The notes under the pieces: generated by a model
What the model was told of the DNA's origin: nothing
The model's input: the letters and a program-made list of their open reading frames with translations, nothing else
The model's database searches: none
Translations under genes and position numbers: made by a program
Shown: positions 10,417 through 21,972 of the stretch, in pieces
Layout of the letters: each line of letters begins with the position of its first letter
Numbering within the stretch: the stretch's first letter is position 1
Assembly: GCA_016782445.1 (NCBI GenBank)
Contig: JADHYM010000005.1
Span: 1 to 47,559 of the forward strand
From: Candidatus Omnitrophota bacterium
GTDB taxonomy: Bacteria > Omnitrophota > Gorgyraeia > JABMRN01 > RBG-13-46-9
DNA: 47,559 bases
Reading direction: 5' to 3'

Positions 10417-10434
10417 CGTAAGGCCAATATGGCC

Positions 10435-10463
10435 TTGACAGCATGTAGCCCATATGTTAAAAT
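10435..10463 (+). promoter_or_regulatory. Strong sigma-70-type promoter upstream of nfnA
   Basis: A consensus TTGACA (10435-10440), 17-bp spacer and TAAAAT (10458-10463). The -35 overlaps the right arm of the inverted repeat AAGGCC-AATAT-GGCCTT (10420-10436), which may be an operator or the end of the previous transcript. Transcription from about 10470 gives a 76-nt leader that contains the hairpin/terminator at 10501-10542. Confidence 0.75.
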
Positions 10464-10500
10464 TTGGCATAAATAAAATTTGGTATAAATTAGAAAACGT

Positions 10501-10542
10501 AGACAAGGGTGTCTTTATACATAAGGCACCCTTGTTTTTTTT
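10501..10542 (+). promoter_or_regulatory. Attenuator-like leader: AAGG hexaloop hairpin overlapping an intrinsic terminator
   Basis: AGAC-AAGGGT-GTCT (10501-10514) is a 4-bp stem with a hexaloop that has A at position 1 and G at 4. It is mutually exclusive with the terminator ACAAGGGTG/CACCCTTGT (10503-10511 and 10527-10535), which is followed by 8 T. The T-run ends 3 nt before the nfnA ATG and no Shine-Dalgarno sequence is visible. The layout resembles an ANTAR antitermination target, but a second hexaloop hairpin upstream is not evident. Confidence 0.55.
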
Positions 10543-10545
10543 AAT

Positions 10546-11376
10546 ATGAAAATACTAAAAAAAGAAATATTGACCGATGCCCTTGGTTCAAGGGTAGCAA
10601 GGCTTGAGATTGAAGCGCCGCTTATTGCTTCAAAGGCGAGACCCGGGCAGTTTGTGGTCCTGATGGTAAAAAAAGAGGGCGAGAGAATTCCTTTGACAGT
10701 AGCTGCTTCCGACGAAAAAGAGGGGCGCATTACGCTGATTTTTCAGGAACTCGGGCTTACCACGAAACTTCTCGGAAAAGCGGAAGAGGGAGACTCGCTT
10801 TATTCGCTTGTAGGGCCCTTAGGCCATGCTACGGAAATAAAAAAATACGGCAGCGTAATACTTATAGGAGGCGGGGTCGGCATAGCTGAAGTTTATCCGG
10901 TTGCCAAGGCAATGTCTGCCGTAGCCGGAAATAAGGTTATTACGATAATAGGGGCCCGGACAAAAGGCCTTCTGATACTTGAAGAAGAGCTAAGGGCCGT
11001 ATCGAGCGAGCTTCATGTCGCCACTGACGATGGTTCTTACGGAACGAAGGGTTTCGTGACAGATATCTTAGCTTATAGCTTAAAGCTTAAAGCTTATAGC
11101 TTAGTATACGCCGTCGGACCAATCCCTATGATGAAGGCAGTTGCGAATGCCACAAAAAATTCAGGAATTAAAACAACAGTTTCTCTTAATGCTCTGATGG
11201 TGGACGGGACAGGCATGTGCGGTTCGTGCCGTGTTACAGTAGACGGAAAGGTAAAATTCAGTTGCGTTGACGGCCCTGAATTCGACGCGCACCTTGTGGA
11301 CTGGGACGAGCTTGATAAGAGAAGCAGGATTTACGTTGAGAAGGAAAAACATATTTGTAAATTGAGTAAACTATGA
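10546..11376 (+). CDS. NfnA/SudB-like FAD, [2Fe-2S] oxidoreductase subunit
   Basis: This 276-residue protein of the ferredoxin-NADP reductase fold matches the small subunit of NADH-dependent ferredoxin:NADP+ oxidoreductase (NfnA) or sulfide dehydrogenase SudB. The FAD-binding segment with ARPGQFVVL and GERIPLTV comes first, then the NAD-binding GGGVGIAEVYP (about 107-117), then VYAVGPIPMMK. The C-terminal [2Fe-2S] motif is DGTGMCGSCRVTV...FSCVDGPEF, with three Cys and a preceding Asp as in the family. It likely pairs with the next gene, which it overlaps by 4 bp. No Shine-Dalgarno precedes the ATG; the start agrees with the family N-terminus. Residues about 175-187 (LAYSLKLKAYSL) are encoded by a short heptamer repeat. 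Confidence 0.85.
   Translation: MKILKKEILTDALGSRVARLEIEAPLIASKARPGQFVVLMVKKEGERIPLTVAASDEKEGRITLIFQELGLTTKLLGKAEEGDSLYSLVGPLGHATEIKKYGSVILIGGGVGIAEVYPVAKAMSAVAGNKVITIIGARTKGLLILEEELRAVSSELHVATDDGSYGTKGFVTDILAYSLKLKAYSLVYAVGPIPMMKAVANATKNSGIKTTVSLNALMVDGTGMCGSCRVTVDGKVKFSCVDGPEFDAHLVDWDELDKRSRIYVEKEKHICKLSKL
11068..11104. repeat. Intragenic 7-bp (AGCTTAN) tandem repeat inside nfnA
   Basis: Five consecutive heptamers AGCTTAT, AGCTTAA, AGCTTAA, AGCTTAT, AGCTTAG (11070-11104) are read as AYSLKLKAYSL. The same word family appears at 41620-41694 before lptF (GCTTACA x5). It occupies a surface-loop position between GFVTDIL and VYAVGPIPMM. Confidence 0.7.
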
Positions 11377-12803
11377 AAAAAGTGCCGGTAAGCCCCCAAG
11401 AACTAGACTCAAAATCAAGGATTAACTCTTTCGACGAAGTCGTCTCCTGCTATACTGAAGAAGAGGCTCTTCTAGAGGCGAAGCGCTGTATTCAATGCAA
11501 GAACCCGGCCTGCATTTCAGGCTGCCCGGTAGGTATAGACATAAAAAAATTCATTGCGCAAATTACGGAAAAAGACTACAAGGCCGCCTATCTTACGATA
11601 CGCGAGAAGAATAATTTTCCCTCGATGTGCGGCAGGGTGTGCCCTGCCGAATACCAATGCAGAAAGGCCTGTGTATTCACAAAAAAGGGCGAGCCTTTCG
11701 CCTCTCTAAACGCGATAAACATACATTTTCTCGAGCGCTTTGTCGGGGATTGGGGGATAAAAAATATAAAAAATCAAAAATTTAATATTAAAAATCAAAA
11801 CGAAAAACGCGTTGCTGTCGTCGGTTCCGGCCCCGCGGGCCTTTGTTGCGCGGGCGAGCTTGCCAAGGCCGGAATAAAAGTAACTATTTTTGAGGGCCTT
11901 CATAAAACAGGAGGCGTTCTTAGTTATGGGATTCCTCCGTTCAGGCTGCCGCAGGACACTCTTCATGTAGAGATAGAGTATCTTAAGAATCTTGGCGTTG
12001 AAATAATCCCGAATTTTCTCGTAGGAAAAATGAAAACCCTGGACGAATTTTTCGCGGATGGGTTTTCCGCGATTTTTCTGGGGCTCGGGGCGGGCACACC
12101 GTCTTTTATGAATATCCCGGGCGAAAATCTCTGCAACGTATATTCCGCGAACGAATTTTTAACGAGAGTAAATCTTATGAGTGCTTACAAGTTTCCGGAA
12201 TACCAGACCCCTGTGAATGTAGGAGGGAGCGTAGTCGTAATAGGCGGCGGAAATACCGCGATGGACGCAGCGCGCACAGGCTTAAGGCTTCAGAAAATGA
12301 ACGGGATAAAACCGAACGTAAAAATATATTACAGGCGCACCGAGGTTGAAATGCCGGCGAGGCGGCTTGAAATACATCACGCGAAGGAAGAAGGTGTGGA
12401 TTTTAACCTTCTCACGCAGCCGGTGGCCTTTACAGGGGACCAAGAAGGCCGCGTTGTTTCAATAAAAAGTCTTCGGTGTGAGCTGGGCGAGCCTGACGCA
12501 AGCGGAAGGCGCCGCCCCGTAGCGATAAAAGGGAGCGAATTCGAAAGCCCTTGCGAGGTGGCCATAGTAGCCATAGGCCTACGCGCAAATGAGCTTTTAA
12601 CCAAGGTCACCCCTTCCATAAAACTGGATAAATGGGGGGATATCGCGGTCAATACCGAGACAATGGAGACATCAGTTAAAAATGTGTACGCCGGAGGCGA
12701 CATCGTAGGTGGCGAAGGCACTGTCATTGAGGCCATGGGCATGGCAAAAACCGCTGCTCGGTCTATTGTGAAGACATTGTTTGAAAAAAAGAGCCATTAT
12801 TGA
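11373..12803 (+). CDS. NfnB/GltA-like NADPH-dependent oxidoreductase (glutamate synthase small subunit family)
   Basis: The protein has 476 residues. The N-terminal Fe-S domain (about 35-110) carries CIQCKNPACISGCPVGIDI and CGRVCPAEYQCRKAC, ligands for two [4Fe-4S] clusters. The first dinucleotide fold (VAVVGSGPAGLCCA, about 147) binds FAD and the second (VVVIGGGNTAMDAAR, about 286) binds NADPH; NVYAGGDIVGG near the end completes the FAD site. The family includes glutamate synthase small chain, SudA and NfnB. No glutamate synthase large subunit is present and an NfnA-type subunit precedes it, so an Nfn/Sud-type electron-bifurcating complex is most likely. Residues about 129-142 are a repeat-derived insert (KNIKNQKFNIKNQN). 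A glnA promoter lies in its 3' end. Confidence 0.85.
   Translation: MKKVPVSPQELDSKSRINSFDEVVSCYTEEEALLEAKRCIQCKNPACISGCPVGIDIKKFIAQITEKDYKAAYLTIREKNNFPSMCGRVCPAEYQCRKACVFTKKGEPFASLNAINIHFLERFVGDWGIKNIKNQKFNIKNQNEKRVAVVGSGPAGLCCAGELAKAGIKVTIFEGLHKTGGVLSYGIPPFRLPQDTLHVEIEYLKNLGVEIIPNFLVGKMKTLDEFFADGFSAIFLGLGAGTPSFMNIPGENLCNVYSANEFLTRVNLMSAYKFPEYQTPVNVGGSVVVIGGGNTAMDAARTGLRLQKMNGIKPNVKIYYRRTEVEMPARRLEIHHAKEEGVDFNLLTQPVAFTGDQEGRVVSIKSLRCELGEPDASGRRRPVAIKGSEFESPCEVAIVAIGLRANELLTKVTPSIKLDKWGDIAVNTETMETSVKNVYAGGDIVGGEGTVIEAMGMAKTAARSIVKTLFEKKSHY
11758..11803. repeat. Intragenic A-rich word repeat (AAAAATCAAAA) inside nfnB
   Basis: The segment consists of TAAAAAAT/AAAAATCAAAAATT-like words and translates to IKNIKNQKFNIKNQNEK, between the Fe-S domain and the FAD-binding VAVVGSGPAG. 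Its composition (almost only A and T with periodic C) differs sharply from the flanking gene sequence. Confidence 0.65.
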
Positions 12804-12843: not shown

Positions 12844-14166
12844 ATGACAAAAAATGAAGTTCTAAAAATAGTAAAACAAAAGAAAATCGGATTTGTAAGA
12901 CTCTGGTTTACCGATGTCCTGGGATTTTTGAAAAGTTTTGACATTCCGGTGGAAGAGCTTGGCGGCGCGCTGAAAGACGGAATGGGCTTTGACGGTTCGT
13001 CCATTGAGGGTTTTTCGCGAATCGAGGAATCCGACATGATAGTAAAACCGGACCCTAAGACTTTTCAAATTATACCCTGGATCAAAGAAGAGCGCCCGGT
13101 CGCGCGTATGTTCTGCGACGTTTTACAGCCCGGTGGGAAGCCGTTTGAAGGCGACCCGAGATATGTATTAAAGAAAAACATAGAAGAAGCCAAAAAAATG
13201 GGCTTTACTAATTTTTATCTCGGCCCGGAACTCGAATATTTTTATTTTCGCAATCCCGGCGGCACTGAAATACTTGATAAAGGCGGGTATTTTGATCTGA
13301 CACCTATGGACATAGGAGAAGATTTAAGGCGCAAAACGGTTCTCATGCTCGAGAAAATGGGGATAGAGGTTGAGTACTGGCACCATGAGGTCGCGAGCTC
13401 TCAACACGAGATAGACCTTCGCTACAAGGACGCGCTTCTGATGTCGGATAACGTCATGACCTATCGCATGGTAGTAAAAGAAGTCGCCATGAACAATGGC
13501 CTTTACGCGACCTTCATGCCTAAACCCATGTACGGGGTGCCCGGAAGCGGGATGCATACGCACATGTCTCTTTTTAAGGGTGCGAAGAACGCGTTTTTTG
13601 ACAAAAGTGACAAAATGCATCTCTCGAAGGACGCGAAATATTTTATAGCAGGGCTCTTGACGCACGCCAGAGAAATTTGCTCCGTATGCTGTCAATGGAT
13701 TAATTCCTACAAACGTCTTGTACCGGGCTATGAAGCCCCGGTTTACGTTTCCTGGGCGCAGAAGAATCGCTCGGCCCTTGTGAGAGTACCGGTCTATAAA
13801 CCTGGAAAGGAAAAGGCGACGCGCGTGGAGCTCAGGAACCCGGACCCGGCGTGTAACCCGTATCTTGCATTTTCGGTAATGCTCGCTGCGGGCCTGGAGG
13901 GCATAAAGAAAAAATATGCCCTGCCTAAAGCCATAACCGGTAACATCTATGCGATGTCGGAAAAAGAGCGGAAAGGTTTTGGCATAGAGGCACTTCCTGA
14001 TGACCTTTTTGAAGCTGTGAAAATAACCGAGAAAAGCGCGCTTGTAAGAAAGGCGCTTGGCGATAAGGTGTTTGAGTACTTTATACGCAACAAGAAAGAC
14101 GAGTGGGGCGAATATAGAAAACAGGTTTCAAAGTACGAACTGGGCAAGTATCTCGCGATATTGTAA
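12844..14166 (+). CDS. glnA: Glutamine synthetase, class I (alpha type)
   Basis: This 440-residue cytoplasmic enzyme makes glutamine from glutamate, ammonia and ATP. It has the GS beta-grasp N-terminus with DGMGFDGSSIEGF (about 46-58), the catalytic domain with GPELEYFYF, HHEVASSQHEIDL, GSGMHTHMSL and NRSALVRVP, and the metal/ammonia-site ELRNPDPACNPYL. Length and the C-terminal YAMSEKERKGFGIEALP segment, without the adenylylation-loop tyrosine of the longer beta type, place it with GSI-alpha enzymes controlled by feedback and transcription rather than adenylylation. GGGAGG precedes the ATG. It lies 40 bp after nfnB with its own promoter, and gdhA follows. Confidence 0.95.
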   Translation: MTKNEVLKIVKQKKIGFVRLWFTDVLGFLKSFDIPVEELGGALKDGMGFDGSSIEGFSRIEESDMIVKPDPKTFQIIPWIKEERPVARMFCDVLQPGGKPFEGDPRYVLKKNIEEAKKMGFTNFYLGPELEYFYFRNPGGTEILDKGGYFDLTPMDIGEDLRRKTVLMLEKMGIEVEYWHHEVASSQHEIDLRYKDALLMSDNVMTYRMVVKEVAMNNGLYATFMPKPMYGVPGSGMHTHMSLFKGAKNAFFDKSDKMHLSKDAKYFIAGLLTHAREICSVCCQWINSYKRLVPGYEAPVYVSWAQKNRSALVRVPVYKPGKEKATRVELRNPDPACNPYLAFSVMLAAGLEGIKKKYALPKAITGNIYAMSEKERKGFGIEALPDDLFEAVKITEKSALVRKALGDKVFEYFIRNKKDEWGEYRKQVSKYELGKYLAIL

Positions 14167-14170
14167 ATGA

Positions 14171-14188
14171 GCAGACAAGGCCGTCTGC
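14171..14188 (+). promoter_or_regulatory. GCAGAC-AAGGCC-GTCTGC hexaloop hairpin between glnA and gdhA
   Basis: A perfect 6-bp stem (14171-14176 and 14183-14188) closes a hexaloop with A at position 1 and G at 4, the ANTAR-target signature. Its AGAC-AAGG-NN-GTCT core is the same as in the nfnA leader. A second possible hexaloop hairpin, CTTC-AAAGAA-GAAG (14203-14216), follows, but there is no T-run, so no intrinsic terminator is evident. Confidence 0.45.
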
Positions 14189-14227
14189 GATTGCATTCAA
14201 CCCTTCAAAGAAGAAGTGCAGGGTAGA

Positions 14228-15637
<1,410 letters not shown>

Positions 15638-15645
15638 CTAAAGGA

Positions 15646-16347
15646 ATGGCCAAGAAGAAGTCCTCTTATAAGACGTATCTGGATACCTTAAGCAAAATAA
15701 GCAATGCTATAACCTCGGACTTCTATCTTGGCGACGTTCTTAAGCTCATCGTGACCCTCACCGCGAACGTCATGCACGCCAAAATCTGCTCGCTTTGGAT
15801 CCTTGACGAGGAAACGAAAGACCTTAAGATAAGGGCGACGCAGACGATGAGCGCGGAGTACCTGAAAGAAAGAACGCTCAAACTTGGCGAAGGCATCGTA
15901 GGGCTTGTGGCAAAGGAAAGGAAACCCCTCATAATTTCAGATGTCTCGAGGGATTTGAGGTACAAGGAAAAGTGCCTTGCGCAAAAAGAAAAGCTCGTTT
16001 CCATGCTGAGCGTGCCGATGCTCGTAAAAAAACGCGTTATAGGCGTTATAAACTGTTACACGACCGAAGAGTACAAATTCACGAAAAGTGATATAGCACT
16101 TTTAAGCACCGTAGCAAACCAGGCAGCCGTAGCTATAGAGAATACGGAGCTTGTCGTCAAAACAAAGGTCGTCCAGGAGGAGCTCGAGGCGAGGAAAAAA
16201 GTTGAGAAGGCGAAGGGTATCCTGATGAAAGAACGAGGCCTGTCCGAGGAAGCTGCGTATCGCCTTATAAGAAAATCAAGCATGGACAAACGTTTGCAGA
16301 TGAAGGAGATAGCTGAAGCTATAATAGTTTCCAGCGAATTAAAATAA
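15646..16347 (+). CDS. GAF-ANTAR domain RNA-binding antiterminator
   Basis: The protein has 233 residues. A GAF sensor domain spans about 12-165 (segments TLTANVMHAKICSLWILDEE and LSVPMLVKKRVIGVINCY), a short coiled-coil helix follows (about 165-185), and the C-terminal ANTAR domain spans about 182-233: KVEKAKGILMKERGLSEEAAYRLIRKSS...MKEIAEAII. ANTAR domains bind paired hexaloop RNA hairpins and prevent intrinsic termination. The start is ATG 15646 after AAAGGA; the frame is open further upstream only as a shadow of gdhA. The gene sits 8 bp after gdhA and directly before a leader with two such hairpins and a terminator in front of carB. The GAF ligand is unknown; a nitrogen metabolite is a reasonable guess. 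No cysteine cluster or histidine kinase partner is seen. Confidence 0.9.
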   Translation: MAKKKSSYKTYLDTLSKISNAITSDFYLGDVLKLIVTLTANVMHAKICSLWILDEETKDLKIRATQTMSAEYLKERTLKLGEGIVGLVAKERKPLIISDVSRDLRYKEKCLAQKEKLVSMLSVPMLVKKRVIGVINCYTTEEYKFTKSDIALLSTVANQAAVAIENTELVVKTKVVQEELEARKKVEKAKGILMKERGLSEEAAYRLIRKSSMDKRLQMKEIAEAIIVSSELK

Positions 16348-16351
16348 ACTC

Positions 16352-16380
16352 TTGATACCGCGTAAGAATCGTGATATGAT
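16352..16380 (+). promoter_or_regulatory. Sigma-70-type promoter for carB
   Basis: TTGATA (16352-16357), 17-bp spacer and TATGAT (16375-16380), starting 4 bp after the ANTAR gene stop. The predicted start (about 16386-16388) places the first hexaloop hairpin at the very 5' end of the transcript. Confidence 0.75.
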
Positions 16381-16386
16381 ATTTTC

Positions 16387-16441
16387 AACAATGAAGTTAA
16401 GTAGGCAAGGAAGCCCGCACTGAAGTGCGGGCTTTTTTTTT
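16387..16441 (+). promoter_or_regulatory. Candidate ANTAR-responsive antitermination leader of carB
   Basis: P1 is AAC-AATGAA-GTT (16387-16398) and P2 is GGC-AAGGAA-GCC (16404-16415), separated by 5 nt. Both are hexaloops with A at 1 and G at 4. The terminator AGCCCGCAC-TGAA-GTGCGGGCT (16412-16433), followed by an unbroken T-run to 16441, uses the 3' strand of P2, so the two folds are mutually exclusive. This is the arrangement expected for an ANTAR target, and the ANTAR gene is immediately upstream. Stems are only 3 bp (P1 extends by two more pairs after a mismatch), so the RNA fold needs testing. Confidence 0.7.
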
Positions 16442-16469
16442 GAAAATCAGTTAATCGGGGGAACAGATT

Positions 16470-19400
16470 ATGGCTAAAAGAAAAGACATACACAAAATCC
16501 TTATCATAGGCTCCGGCCCTATTATCATAGGCCAGGCATGCGAATTTGATTATTCCGGCACACAGGCCTGCAAGGCGCTCAAAGAAGAGGGGTACGAGGT
16601 GGTACTGGTAAATTCAAACCCCGCCACAATAATGACAGATCCCGGCATGGCTCATAAGACCTATATTGAGCCGCTTACAATTAAAAGTGTCGAAAGGGTC
16701 ATTGCCAAGGAAAGGCCCGACGCACTTTTGCCGAATCTTGGCGGGCAGACAGGGCTAAATCTTTCATCCGCTCTTTCGAAAGCCGGCGTATTAAAAAAAT
16801 ATGGCGTCCAGATGATAGGTGTTAAAGCGGATGCCATAGAGCGCGGAGAGGATAGAATCGCATTCAAGGAAGCGATGAAAAAACTGGATATTTCTATACC
16901 TAAGTCTGCGCCTTCTCATTCCGTAGAGGAAGCGGAGAAAATCGCCGCAGAGTTGGGATACCCCGTAGTCCTCCGGCCGGCCTACACTCTCGGCGGCACG
17001 GGCGGAGGCCTGGTGTACAACGTGGAGGAATTAAGGGCAGTGGCGGCGCGCGGCCTCGCGGCAAGCATCGTAAACCAGGTTCTTGTTGAGGAATCGGTTC
17101 TCGGATGGGAAGAGCTTGAGCTCGAAGTTGTCAGAGATGATAAAAATAATATGATAACCGTATGCTTCATAGAAAACATAGATGCTATGGGTGTTCATAC
17201 GGGGGATAGCTTTTGCTCAGCGCCCATGCTTACGGTACCTAAGAAACTTCAGAAAAGAATGCAGAGTCTTTCGTATAAAATAGTGGAAGCGATAGGCGTA
17301 ATCGGCGGCACAAATGTACAATTTGCGCATAACGCGAAAGACGATAGGCTTGTCGTAATTGAAATAAATCCCCGGACCTCGCGGTCCTCTGCGCTTGCTT
17401 CAAAGGCTACGGGTTTTCCGATAGCGCGGATATCTACTAAACTTGCCGCCGGACTTACTATGGATGAAATTCCATACTGGCGAAAGGGAACGCTCGAGAA
17501 ATACGAGCCATGGGGAGAATACGTTGTTATTAAATTTGCGCGCTGGGCTTTTGAAAAATTTCCCGCGGCAAAAGATATACTTGGAACGCAGATGAAGGCC
17601 GTCGGCGAGGTCATGAGCATAGGGAAAACTTTTAAGGAGGCCTTTCAGAAAGCGATACGCTCGCTCGAGATAAAACGATACGGTCTGGGTGGAGCCAAAA
17701 ACTTTAAAGAACTTTCTCTTGAAAAACTAAAGGAAAAATTAGCCTATCCTTCGAGCGAACGCGTATTTTTGATGTATGAGGCCTTGAGAAAATGTATTTC
17801 AGTGGAAGAGCTTCACGCAATGACCTACATGCATAGTTATTTTATAAAGGAAATGAAGGAGCTTGTCGATTTTGAAGAGAAAATTCTTAAATATAAATGG
17901 GAAAACCTGCCTGAGGAAAAACTCATTCAGGCAAAGGAATGGGGCTTTGCCGACAGGTATCTGGCGGGACTTTTCAAGGTAAAAGAAAAGTCTGTCCGCG
18001 AGAAAAGAATAAAACTGGGAAAAACAGAATGTTATGAAGCGGTTCCCGTAAGCGGGGTGGAAAACGCTGCTTATTACTATTCAACCTATAACGCAAAGGA
18101 CACAGTGCCCGTATCGCCCAACAAGAAAATCATGATTTTAGGTGGCGGTCCGAATAGAATCGGACAGGGGATCGAGTTTGACTATACTTGCGTTCACGCG
18201 GCTTTTGCATTACGAGACGAAGGTTATGAATCGATAATGGTGAACTGTAACCCCGAAACCGTATCCACTGATTATGACACATCAAATAAACTCTACTTTG
18301 AGCCGCTTACCGCGGAGGATGTGCTTTCGATATACCATAAAGAAAAACCCGAAGGCGTTATAGTCCAGTTCGGTGGTCAGACTCCGCTTAACATCGCGCA
18401 GGAACTTAAATCTAACGGCGTAAAAATTCTGGGCACTACGCCTGAAAGCATTCACCTTGCCGAAGACAGGGAAAGATTTCGCGAGAAGATGATAAAACTT
18501 AATATTCCGCAGCCTGAAAGCGGCACTGCGCGTTCGTTAGAAGATGCGTTAAAAATAGCGAAAAAAATCGGATTTCCTCTCATGTGCAGGCCTTCTTATG
18601 TTTTAGGCGGCCGCGGAATGGAAATCGTATACGACGAAGAACGCCTAAAAGCTTACGTCCTTGAAGCTATCAATGTGAATCCGGAACACCCTGTACTCAT
18701 CGACAGGTTCCTCGAAGAGGCGCTTGAGACTGAGGTCGACGCGCTCGCCGACGGGGAAAATGCATTTGTCGCGGCTGTAATGGAACATATAGAACTTGCA
18801 GGCGTACATTCCGGGGATTCGGCGTGCGTTATACCTAAAAGAACTATCCCTGAGAAGCATATGAAAACAATAAAGGAATATACCACAAAAATTGCTAGGG
18901 AGTTCAAGGTTGTAGGGCTCATGAACATACAATATGCTATAGCGGGCGACAAAGTATATATCCTAGAAGCAAATCCGCGCGCATCGCGAACGGTTCCCCT
19001 CGTGGCAAAAGTAACAGGGGTTTCTATCGCAAGAATCGCCACGTTTCTCATGCTGGGCAGGAAGTTATCGGAATTTCCGGAATTAAAAACGCAAGAACTT
19101 CCGCACGTAGGAGTAAAGGAAGCGGTATTCCCGTTTAACATGTTTCCGGAGGTCGACCCGCTCCTTGGCCCTGAAATGAAAGCGACAGGCGAAGTGATGG
19201 GAATAGCCGATAGTTTTGGGCTTGCGTTTTATAAGGCGCAAGAGGCAGCCGGAACAAAGCTTCCTCTTGAGGGTAATGTTCTTCTGACCGTAGCGGATAA
19301 GGATAAGAAAAAGCTTCTGCCGATCGCCAAGAAACTAAAAGCACTCGGGTTTAATATCTATACCACAGAAGGGACTTCTAATTTCTTGCGGGAAAAAGGC

Positions 19401-19712
19401 CTGAATTGCGCATGTATTAAGAAACTTCACGAGGGCAGGCCAAACATTGCTGACGCGATAAAAAATAAGGAAGTGCAACTTATAATAAACACGCCCCTCG
19501 GCAAGGTTTCCAAATATGACGACAGCTATATCCGTATTTCGGCAATACAGCATAAGATTCCTTATATAACGTCGATGACGGCTGCCGAGGCAAGCACCGA
19601 AGGTATTGAGGCGATGAAAAAATCTAAACTCGTTCCCAAATCCCTGCAGGATTATTATAAAGATCTGGCTAAAAGGAAAGAAAGTAAAAAAGTAACATCT
19701 AAAGCAAAATAG
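16470..19712 (+). CDS. carB: Carbamoyl-phosphate synthase large subunit
   Basis: This 1080-residue protein has the duplicated CarB architecture. The carboxyphosphate half starts GSGPIIIGQACEFDYSG with its ATP-grasp domain (GGTGGGLVYN, INPRTSRSSALASKATGFP). The carbamoyl half starts GGGPNRIGQGIEFDYTC at about residue 553, with a second ATP-grasp domain (ANPRASRTVPLVAKVTG). A C-terminal MGS-like allosteric domain follows (about 935-1070). It makes carbamoyl phosphate for pyrimidines and arginine from glutamine-derived ammonia. carA is not in the window. It begins downstream of an ANTAR-type leader and terminator, with GGGGGAACAG before the ATG. purL follows 31 bp later. Confidence 0.97.
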   Translation: MAKRKDIHKILIIGSGPIIIGQACEFDYSGTQACKALKEEGYEVVLVNSNPATIMTDPGMAHKTYIEPLTIKSVERVIAKERPDALLPNLGGQTGLNLSSALSKAGVLKKYGVQMIGVKADAIERGEDRIAFKEAMKKLDISIPKSAPSHSVEEAEKIAAELGYPVVLRPAYTLGGTGGGLVYNVEELRAVAARGLAASIVNQVLVEESVLGWEELELEVVRDDKNNMITVCFIENIDAMGVHTGDSFCSAPMLTVPKKLQKRMQSLSYKIVEAIGVIGGTNVQFAHNAKDDRLVVIEINPRTSRSSALASKATGFPIARISTKLAAGLTMDEIPYWRKGTLEKYEPWGEYVVIKFARWAFEKFPAAKDILGTQMKAVGEVMSIGKTFKEAFQKAIRSLEIKRYGLGGAKNFKELSLEKLKEKLAYPSSERVFLMYEALRKCISVEELHAMTYMHSYFIKEMKELVDFEEKILKYKWENLPEEKLIQAKEWGFADRYLAGLFKVKEKSVREKRIKLGKTECYEAVPVSGVENAAYYYSTYNAKDTVPVSPNKKIMILGGGPNRIGQGIEFDYTCVHAAFALRDEGYESIMVNCNPETVSTDYDTSNKLYFEPLTAEDVLSIYHKEKPEGVIVQFGGQTPLNIAQELKSNGVKILGTTPESIHLAEDRERFREKMIKLNIPQPESGTARSLEDALKIAKKIGFPLMCRPSYVLGGRGMEIVYDEERLKAYVLEAINVNPEHPVLIDRFLEEALETEVDALADGENAFVAAVMEHIELAGVHSGDSACVIPKRTIPEKHMKTIKEYTTKIAREFKVVGLMNIQYAIAGDKVYILEANPRASRTVPLVAKVTGVSIARIATFLMLGRKLSEFPELKTQELPHVGVKEAVFPFNMFPEVDPLLGPEMKATGEVMGIADSFGLAFYKAQEAAGTKLPLEGNVLLTVADKDKKKLLPIAKKLKALGFNIYTTEGTSNFLREKGLNCACIKKLHEGRPNIADAIKNKEVQLIINTPLGKVSKYDDSYIRISAIQHKIPYITSMTAAEASTEGIEAMKKSKLVPKSLQDYYKDLAKRKESKKVTSKAK

Positions 19713-19743: not shown

Positions 19744-21972
19744 ATGGAAGCGACTATCAAGGTAAATGCGGCAATGGCAAAAGAGTTGGGGCTTACAGAG
19801 GAAGAATTTGAACGCATAAAAACGCTTCTTGGCAGAACCCCGAACGTTACCGAGCTTGGTGTTTTTTCCGCCATGTGGTCGGAGCACTGCAGTTATAAAA
19901 ACTCACGAAAACTATTCAAGCTTTTTCCTACAAAGGGCCCTCAGGTAGTTGTGGGCGCGGGCGAGGAAAACTGCGGGATAGTTGATATAGGGGACGGTCT
20001 CGGCGTTGCTTTTAAAATAGAGTCGCATAACCATCCATCAGCAGTTGAGCCTTTTGAAGCTTCCGCGACCGGCATAGGCGGATGCTTGAGGGATATTTTT
20101 ACGACAGGGGCACGCCCCATCGCGGTACTCGGGTCCCTTCGTTTCGGCAGTTTGGATAAGGAAAAAGTAAAGTTTTTGTTCAAGGAAGTAATCCGCGGCT
20201 TGGCGCATTACGCGAATACGGCAGAAGTAAATGCCGTAGGAGGGGAAACATATTTTGACGAAAGCTATGAAGGAAATCCCCTTGTAAATGCGTTTGTCGT
20301 GGGTATCGTAAAGAAGGATAAAATCATAAAAGGAGCTGCTTCCGGAGTGGGTAATCCCGTGTATTACATAGGCGGGGATACAGGACGCGATGGCGTGGGA
20401 GGGGCAAGTTTTGCGTCGAAGGAAATAACAGAGGAGTCAACGACTGATACAAGTTCCGTTGCCATAGGTGATGCCGAGCTCGGGAAGCGTTTGCGGGAGG
20501 CATGCCTCGAGCTTATCGAGAAAGATCTCGTGATCGGCATGCAGGATATGGGCGCTGCGGGATTAACATGCTCTTCCTGTGAGACAGCTACAAGGAGCGG
20601 CACCGGTATCGAAATAGACGTTTCGCTCGTCCCTCAAAGGGAAAAGAAGATGACGCCTTACGAAATATTACTTTCGGAGTCACAAGAGAGAATGCTCGCG
20701 ATATTAAAGAACGGAAAAGAATCTGAGGCGTTCGAGGTGTTAAAAAAATGGAAGATCAACGCCGTGAAAATAGGTAAAGTCACAGGCGACAAGATGATGC
20801 GGGTAAAGGAAAAAGGCGTCGTTGTTTGCGAAGTGCCGGCGGAAGCGCTCACGAAAGAAGCGCCTCTCTATGATCGTGAGACCAAAGAACCGGCGTATCT
20901 TAAAGAGACAAGAAAACTTGATCTAGCATCGATAAAAATGCCGGACGATTTAAGCTCGGTTCTTCTAAAATTACTGGATTCGCCCACGATCGGGAGCAAG
21001 GAAGCGCAATATAAGCAATTTACCAGCATAGATAAAAAGACAGTGATTCAGGGCGCAGGGTCCGACGCGGCAGTAATAAGGGTTCCGGGTACAAAAAAGG
21101 CTCTTGCCATAAGCGTTGATTGCAACGGCAGGCACTGCTACCTCAATCCTCACGACGGAGCTATGATAGCAGTGGCAGAAGCTGCCAGGAACATAGTCTG
21201 TTCAGGCGGAAGGCCCCTCGCAATAACGGACGGCCTGAATTTCGGAAGCCCGATGAAACCCGAAAACTACTGGCAGTTTACCAAATGCATCGAAGGGCTC
21301 GCTCATGCATGCTCGGTGCTCGAGACGCCGGTTATAAGCGGTAACGCGAGTTTTTATAACGAAAATCCGAAGGGCGCGGTTGATCCGACACCGATTGTCG
21401 GCATGGTAGGGCTCATAGAAGATGCTTCGAAATTCGTAACTCAGGATTTTAAAAATGAAAACGACGTAATCTTCCTTCTCGGGAAGCCTAGCGACGAAAT
21501 GGCCGGGAGCGAATATCTCTATATTGTGCACCGTGAAAAAAAGGGAAATCCCACGATTGATATCGAACTCGAAAAGCGCCTCCAAAAAGCCTGCCTTGAG
21601 GCGATAACCTCAGGTATTATTAGCTCTGCACACGACTGTTCCGAAGGCGGGCTTACCGTGGCGCTGGCCGAATCCTGCGTGACAAACGCGAAACGCCTTA
21701 CAGGGGCCACTATCAATATCGATACGCAGAGCATGCGCCTTGACGGCATGCTTTTTGGCGAAGCGCCATCGAGGATAATAGTTTCGCTTGATAAAAAGAA
21801 TTCAGAAAACTTAAAAGCGATATGCGAAAAAGCAAATGTGCCCTACCTTGAACTGGGCCGTGTGGGTGGCGAGAATCTCCTAATCAAAGACAAGAACAAG
21901 ACGATTATAGATGTGCCCGTTAAAAAGCTGAGCAATACCTGGAGGAATGCAATTCCCTCAAGGGTGAAGTAG
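19744..21972 (+). CDS. purL: Phosphoribosylformylglycinamidine synthase subunit PurL
   Basis: The 742-residue length is that of the small-type PurL, which needs separate PurS and PurQ. Motifs: SEHCSYKNS near residue 45, GVAFKIESHNHPSAVEPF (about 89-106), GGETYFDESY, the second-half VDCNGRHCYLNPHDGA and the C-terminal HDCSEGGLTVALAES. It converts FGAR to FGAM with glutamine-derived ammonia and ATP in purine synthesis. GGGAGG precedes the ATG. It is the second gene of the carB unit and ends before a strong hairpin. Placing it after carB joins two glutamine-consuming nucleotide enzymes under the same leader. Confidence 0.96.
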   Translation: MEATIKVNAAMAKELGLTEEEFERIKTLLGRTPNVTELGVFSAMWSEHCSYKNSRKLFKLFPTKGPQVVVGAGEENCGIVDIGDGLGVAFKIESHNHPSAVEPFEASATGIGGCLRDIFTTGARPIAVLGSLRFGSLDKEKVKFLFKEVIRGLAHYANTAEVNAVGGETYFDESYEGNPLVNAFVVGIVKKDKIIKGAASGVGNPVYYIGGDTGRDGVGGASFASKEITEESTTDTSSVAIGDAELGKRLREACLELIEKDLVIGMQDMGAAGLTCSSCETATRSGTGIEIDVSLVPQREKKMTPYEILLSESQERMLAILKNGKESEAFEVLKKWKINAVKIGKVTGDKMMRVKEKGVVVCEVPAEALTKEAPLYDRETKEPAYLKETRKLDLASIKMPDDLSSVLLKLLDSPTIGSKEAQYKQFTSIDKKTVIQGAGSDAAVIRVPGTKKALAISVDCNGRHCYLNPHDGAMIAVAEAARNIVCSGGRPLAITDGLNFGSPMKPENYWQFTKCIEGLAHACSVLETPVISGNASFYNENPKGAVDPTPIVGMVGLIEDASKFVTQDFKNENDVIFLLGKPSDEMAGSEYLYIVHREKKGNPTIDIELEKRLQKACLEAITSGIISSAHDCSEGGLTVALAESCVTNAKRLTGATINIDTQSMRLDGMLFGEAPSRIIVSLDKKNSENLKAICEKANVPYLELGRVGGENLLIKDKNKTIIDVPVKKLSNTWRNAIPSRVK

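Follow-up and report, generated by a model that had tools for sequence, protein, structure and literature searches.

Most of what is known of ANTAR-mediated antitermination comes from ethanolamine, nitrate and amidase operons. In the EutV-responsive leaders of the Enterococcus faecalis eut genes, two small hairpins with 3-bp stems and hexanucleotide loops carrying A1 and G4 are joined by linkers of 5 to 12 nt, and bases of the second hairpin (P2) are shared with an intrinsic terminator (Ramesh 2012, PMC3369931; Walshe 2022, PMC8934654). The mechanism described for EutV is that protein bound to the hexaloops holds P2 while RNA polymerase passes (PMC3369931, PMC8934654). A single hexaloop is the binding unit, but contact with both is needed for antitermination (Walshe 2022, NAR, PMC8934654). 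EutV is governed by a phosphorylated receiver domain, whereas NasR of Klebsiella oxytoca is a one-component regulator in which a NIT nitrate-sensing domain and ANTAR share a chain and which acts on the hexaloop leader of nasF to control nitrate assimilation genes. Predicted ANTAR nitrogen regulons in Desulfotomaculum and Pelobacter comprise several operons per genome, with consecutive attenuators and such targets as GOGAT, glutamine synthetase (GS), PII and ammonium transporters (PMC3369931); the main text of that paper does not list either carbamoyl-phosphate synthase or PurL among the targets. Actinobacterial ANTAR RNAs have tandem A1/G4 hexaloops with accepted linkers of 2 to 25 nt, and the main text describing them does not mention purine, pyrimidine, carbamoyl or GAF (PMC8164766). 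As of 2012, none of the GAF-ANTAR regulators had been characterised (Ramesh 2012, PMC3369931). A literature search limited to main texts detected no paper that connects carbamoyl-phosphate synthase with the ANTAR domain, or Omnitrophota with ANTAR.

The stretch of DNA analysed here (the window; 47,559 nt) derives from a genome assembly of 1.0 Mb, 86% complete, that is closest, among named organisms, to Candidatus Omnitrophota. It contains, in order, an NfnA/GltA-like oxidoreductase pair (10546-12803), a GS gene (12844-14166), the NADP glutamate dehydrogenase gene gdhA (14294-15637) and, on the forward strand, a gene for a GAF-ANTAR regulator of 233 amino acids (15646-16347), carB for the carbamoyl-phosphate synthase large subunit (16470-19712; NCBIfam NF003671, 1525 bits) and purL (19744-21972; NF002290, 921 bits). 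The purL gene starts 31 nt 3' of carB and presumably lies on the same transcript. The window is thus a compact and readable GAF-ANTAR case, with the regulator, a predicted target 39 nt downstream of its gene and an ANTAR gene that is usually the only one per genome.

Direct reading of the forward strand bore out what a sequence-only reading had described in this leader. A sigma-70-like promoter, TTGATA (16352-16357)-17 nt-TATGAT (16375-16380), matches the consensus at 10 of 12 positions, has a TG before the second hexamer and lies immediately after the GAF-ANTAR gene, as claimed. Its -10 element ends 6 nt 5' of the first hairpin, so the transcript is expected to begin at P1. P1 (AAC-AATGAA-GTT, 16387-16398) and P2 (GGC-AAGGAA-GCC, 16404-16415) were found where they had been placed, with two stems of at least 3 bp, hexanucleotide loops AATGAA and AAGGAA, and A1 and G4 in both. 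The linker, AAGTA, is 5 nt long and falls within the ranges of both the E. faecalis eut leaders (5 to 12 nt) and the actinobacterial RNAs (2 to 25 nt). P2 is followed by an intrinsic terminator (16413-16441) comprising the hairpin GCCCGCAC-TGAA-GTGCGGGC at 16413-16432 and nine T residues (16433-16441). The final GCC of P2 begins the left GC arm, followed by CGCAC-TGAA-GTGCGGGC and the T run, and the two structures therefore share bases 16413-16415 and are mutually exclusive, which is the arrangement of the antitermination subclass. The 8-bp GC-rich stem can be extended to 14 bp by A-U pairs, which lengthen the left arm to 16407. The earlier reading was correct in having the terminator use the 3' strand of P2 but placed the left arm at 16412-16420, one base away from the GC arm at 16413-16420.

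The minimum free energy (MFE) structure of 16386-16441 was the terminator, at -21.9 kcal/mol (z, -4.8), versus -10.8 kcal/mol when P1 and P2 were imposed. The short stems had been named as the weak point of the proposal; P1 consists of only 3 bp (AAC/GTT) and was absent from the MFE structure even without the terminator. From the two energies it follows that a protein would have to hold P2 while the polymerase passes.

Together with the tests described below, these features make it very probable that positions 16348-16469 form the carB-purL 5' leader, an ANTAR-type transcription attenuator that the GAF-ANTAR protein encoded upstream would cancel. Transcription would start at about 16387. In the default state the terminator at 16413-16441 would form and carB would be off. 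In its binding state, the GAF-ANTAR protein would hold the P1 and P2 hexaloops as a dimer; P2 would then withhold the three leading bases (16413-16415) from the left GC arm, so that the terminator could not form in time and RNA polymerase would read into carB-purL. Binding, antitermination and the cotranscription of purL with carB are all predictions from sequence. The mechanism and the motif are already known, and the extension, well supported as a prediction, is the addition of carbamoyl phosphate (and, by operon, of purL) to an ANTAR regulon.

The likelihood of such a unit arising by chance was assessed with a scan for tandem A1/G4 hairpins with a P1 loop of six or seven, a P2 loop of six, C-G-closed stems of three or more pairs and a P2 overlapping a terminator. 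The carB leader was the only unit in the window, and none was detected in 100 dinucleotide shuffles (9.5 Mb, both strands). When the terminator was not required, a scan of both window strands gave only two tandem pairs, one in the carB leader and one in the gdhA leader, versus 0.28 expected. Across 1.81 Mb of neighbourhoods from related genomes (both strands), P2 plus terminator occurred 29 times versus 5 times in the shuffle, and P1 plus P2 plus terminator occurred 11 times versus 0. A plain sequence pattern was uninformative over the window's own genome (91 + 75 matches versus 88 + 50 in a reversed control).

Two covariance models were built from leaders other than those of carB. R1, made from seven leaders of non-carB genes in other genomes, had the carB leader as its only match over the whole own genome (25.4 bits; E, 0.010), and the next best score in the window was 11.7 bits. 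R2, made from thirteen leaders and no carB, again matched only this leader (31.0 bits; E, 9e-4). E values of purpose-built models such as these are rough. The covariance-model search that the sequence-only reading had called for thus returned the carB leader as the sole match in its own genome with both held-out models.

The protein encoded upstream has the domains expected of such a regulator. Pfam analysis of the 233-amino-acid open reading frame detected GAF_2 (2.7e-22) and ANTAR (1.4e-19); the PF03861 (ANTAR domain) score was 72.9 bits against a cutoff of 27.3, and this was the single PF03861 match in the whole assembly (86% complete). The closest ANTAR relative with a solved structure was EutV (6wsh), for which 11 RNA-contact residues have been listed (PMC8934654). 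Nine of these were identical in the window protein (R142, K143, K147, K149, E160, Y164, R168, M172 and R175), and the two changes were N173 to D and R177 to Q. The residues surrounding the flipped G4 (R142, K149, E160 and Y164) and the methionine plug, M172, were conserved. The system resembles EutV in its hairpins, linker, terminator overlap and largely retained ANTAR contacts; it differs in its sensor, a GAF domain carried by the ANTAR chain itself, in the predicted controlled genes, carB-purL, and in the phylum, Omnitrophota. With NasR it shares the one-component design, a hexaloop leader and a nitrogen theme, with GAF in place of NIT. Dimerisation is known for GAF domains (PMC3369931).

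The best NCBIfam matches of the GAF part were to PtsP (74 bits) and NifA (58 bits), both far under the full-length cutoffs, and these scores indicate kinship of the GAF domain only. As the GAF domain of PtsP responds to glutamine (PMC4848567), glutamine is a reasonable but unproven ligand for the window protein. The signal is probably nitrogen status; naming glutamine or 2-oxoglutarate from the resemblance to PtsP and NifA is a guess by analogy.

The distribution of leaders among related genomes was then compared with that of the ANTAR gene. Of 59 close relatives, 41 carried PF03861, each in a single copy, as did 179 of 246 genomes sampled from the class, most of them with one copy; a lone GAF-ANTAR protein is thus the usual state here, in contrast to the Desulfotomaculum and Pelobacter regulons. 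R2 matches with an E value of ≤0.01 were detected in 34 of the 179 ANTAR-positive genomes versus 0 of the 67 ANTAR-negative genomes (Fisher P, 8e-6). After removal of eleven training genomes, the counts were 23 of 168 versus 0 of 67 (P, 3e-4). The genomes are related, so these P values overstate independence, and the matches span many families. Leaders of this type thus co-occurred with an ANTAR protein encoded in the same genome. Weak R2 matches in five ANTAR-less genomes (G057, G166, G242, G112 and G032) were treated as chance. A weak match in a further ANTAR-less assembly, G089, which is 81% complete, looks real; an ANTAR gene is present in another genome of its genus. Two ANTAR-less genomes of the same family as the window genome (G001 and G007) had carB directly after gdhA and lacked the motif.

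Leaders from all fetched loci were collected under a strict P1-P2-terminator definition, yielding 70 distinct examples whose stems had been selected for three pairs only. P1 pairs 4 and 5, for which there was no selection, formed in 70% and 71% of these leaders versus 42% and 45% with shuffled partners, and none of 2000 shuffles reached the observed frequency. The outer pairs of P2 in the 70 leaders were not significant, which fits a hairpin constrained by its overlap with the terminator. The compensatory changes that the sequence-only reading had named as support were hence present in P1 but were not significant in P2. Its expectation of an invariant A1 and G4 was likewise borne out in part: the loops kept A1 and G4 while the stems varied between leaders, but A1 was not strictly invariant in this group, occasional loops having G or T as their first base. 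Among leaders with recognisable promoters, the -10 element most often ended six nt ahead of the P1 core, the spacing also seen in the window; P1 would then occupy the extreme 5' end of the RNA. No related genome was near enough for a base-by-base alignment of the carB leader of the window.

Independent attenuators associated with carA or carB were also detected in relatives, in several other families. In G023 the order was ANTAR-attenuator-carB, with P1 CGC-AATGTTA-GCG (a seven-base loop), P2 AGGAC-AAAGAC-GTTCT and a long-looped terminator. In G055 the attenuator preceded an ANTAR-carB pair, and in G027 and G184 it preceded carA. In G029 it lay before gdhA, with carB 2 nt after gdhA. G033 had two consecutive attenuators before GOGAT and carB downstream, about 100 nt apart, and here carB may have its own promoter. 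Tandem hairpins lacking a terminator preceded carB in G005 and G043. A further carA leader, CTTAA-AGAGTA-TTAGG, was rejected as chance, its loop not being C-G closed. Most carB genes and leaders in the fetched loci had no ANTAR hairpins, and the idea that carB is a universal ANTAR target was rejected on this account; its distribution makes carB a target that recurs within a nitrogen regulon without being obligatory. Together with the held-out models, the 34-versus-0 co-occurrence and the covariation in P1, these independent carA and carB leaders leave ANTAR-controlled antitermination of carB-purL, the central claim of the earlier reading, well supported as a prediction.

Three other explanations of the carB leader were considered. 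The hairpin might merely terminate a gdhA-ANTAR transcript, with the small hairpins being coincidental, and its position directly behind the ANTAR stop codon is indeed the one expected of a terminator at the end of a gene. This is very unlikely, since a promoter is situated between that stop codon and the terminator, with about 50 nt from the start to the end of the terminator; only 28 nt separate the T run from the carB ATG and no second promoter-like site was reported there; and the motif is the sole model match in the genome and recurs in the same relation to carA or carB elsewhere. The least probable explanation is that the terminator belongs to another type of attenuator (PyrR type, T-box, riboswitch or leader peptide) responsive to pyrimidines, arginine or purines. 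It draws on the fact that carAB and pur genes are classic attenuation targets in other bacteria, but the approximately 26 nt before the terminator arm are too short for such elements, and an Rfam scan of the window detected no family other than tRNA at the gathering threshold, with no PyrR, T-box or purine riboswitch member.

Between these two in probability, and also very unlikely, is the possibility that the carB leader is an ANTAR target on which the bound protein acts chiefly by other means, such as repression or an effect on translation. Leaders without a terminator, such as those of carB in G043 and G005 and the tandem site before gdhA in the window, where P2 competes with Shine-Dalgarno pairing, would suit this mode of action. 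In the carB leader P2 overlaps a strong terminator, which is the geometry described for antitermination by EutV, NasR and AmiR (PMC3369931), and the Shine-Dalgarno sequence lies outside the terminator fold. Antitermination by the GAF-ANTAR protein therefore remains the preferred reading for carB.

The gdhA leader (14165-14293) is the second tandem ANTAR site of the window. On the forward strand it has P1 GCAGAC-AAGGCC-GTCTGC (14171-14188) and P2 CTTC-AAAGAA-GAAG (14203-14216), both with A1/G4 hexaloops, and a core linker of 18 nt; a terminator is absent. In the predicted MFE structure, the left side of P2 paired with the gdhA Shine-Dalgarno sequence (AAGGAGG, from 14279), and forcing P2 to form freed it. 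This competition and the absence of a terminator suggest that gdhA may be under translational control by the same GAF-ANTAR protein, which would unmask the ribosome-binding site. A long AT-rich hairpin (TTGATTTATAAA.../...TTTATAAATCAA) without a T run was observed at 14228-14270, just 5' of the gdhA Shine-Dalgarno sequence.

A candidate single-hexaloop attenuator (10501-10537, forward strand) precedes the NfnA/GltA-like operon. Its leader (10434-10545) has a promoter-like TTGACA-17-TAAAAT, and the hexaloop AGAC-AAGGGT-GTCT (10501-10514) overlaps a strong 14-bp terminator; no P1 was found in this leader. The same single-hexaloop form was seen before NfnA in three other genomes, G045 among them.

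Further genes behind comparable leaders encoded GS, GSIII, GDH, GOGAT, Amt, PII, NAD synthetase, a sigma-70-like protein, outer-membrane-like proteins and ANTAR itself. Glutamine nitrogen is consumed by CarAB and, with an amidotransferase partner, by PurL, and both are for this reason sensible members of a regulon otherwise made up of glutamine-forming genes. Carbamoyl-phosphate synthase links the assimilation of nitrogen with the synthesis of pyrimidines and arginine. The Desulfotomaculum and Pelobacter regulons likewise include consecutive attenuators, several operons per genome and targets of this kind. A broader and tentative proposal is possible but somewhat doubtful. One GAF-ANTAR protein per genome may run a glutamine-economy regulon across much of this Omnitrophota class, coupling ammonia assimilation (Amt, PII, GS, GDH and GOGAT) to major glutamine consumers (CarAB, PurL and NadE). 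Within a single genome it would use antitermination at some genes (here carB) and expose the ribosome-binding site at others (here gdhA); the regulon would include single-hexaloop attenuators and would relay its signal through the sigma-70-like factor, with the GAF domain sensing glutamine as in PtsP. The window itself offers a prediction for how bacteria of this largely uncultured phylum may adjust their use of glutamine.

At eight loci, the gene behind the attenuator encoded a protein of 170 to 200 amino acids resembling sigma-70 regions 2 and 4, which was among the commonest genes in this position in Omnitrophota; such a target would give a transcription cascade below an RNA-binding regulator. 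Two types of outer-membrane-like protein were encoded behind attenuators at five loci, with no Pfam match in the one of each that was scanned, and these are perhaps channels for nitrogen compounds. At a further set of five loci, an attenuator lay directly 5' of the ANTAR gene, which implies autoregulation.

The 70 short leaders also provide material for ANTAR recognition rules, including P1 loops of six or seven, single hexaloops and G or T at position 1. P1 had a C-G-closed seven-base loop, ANNGNNN, at five loci whose leaders were otherwise canonical. Two or three consecutive attenuators preceded one gene in G002, G033 and G005, and the later ones sometimes had G or T at loop position 1.
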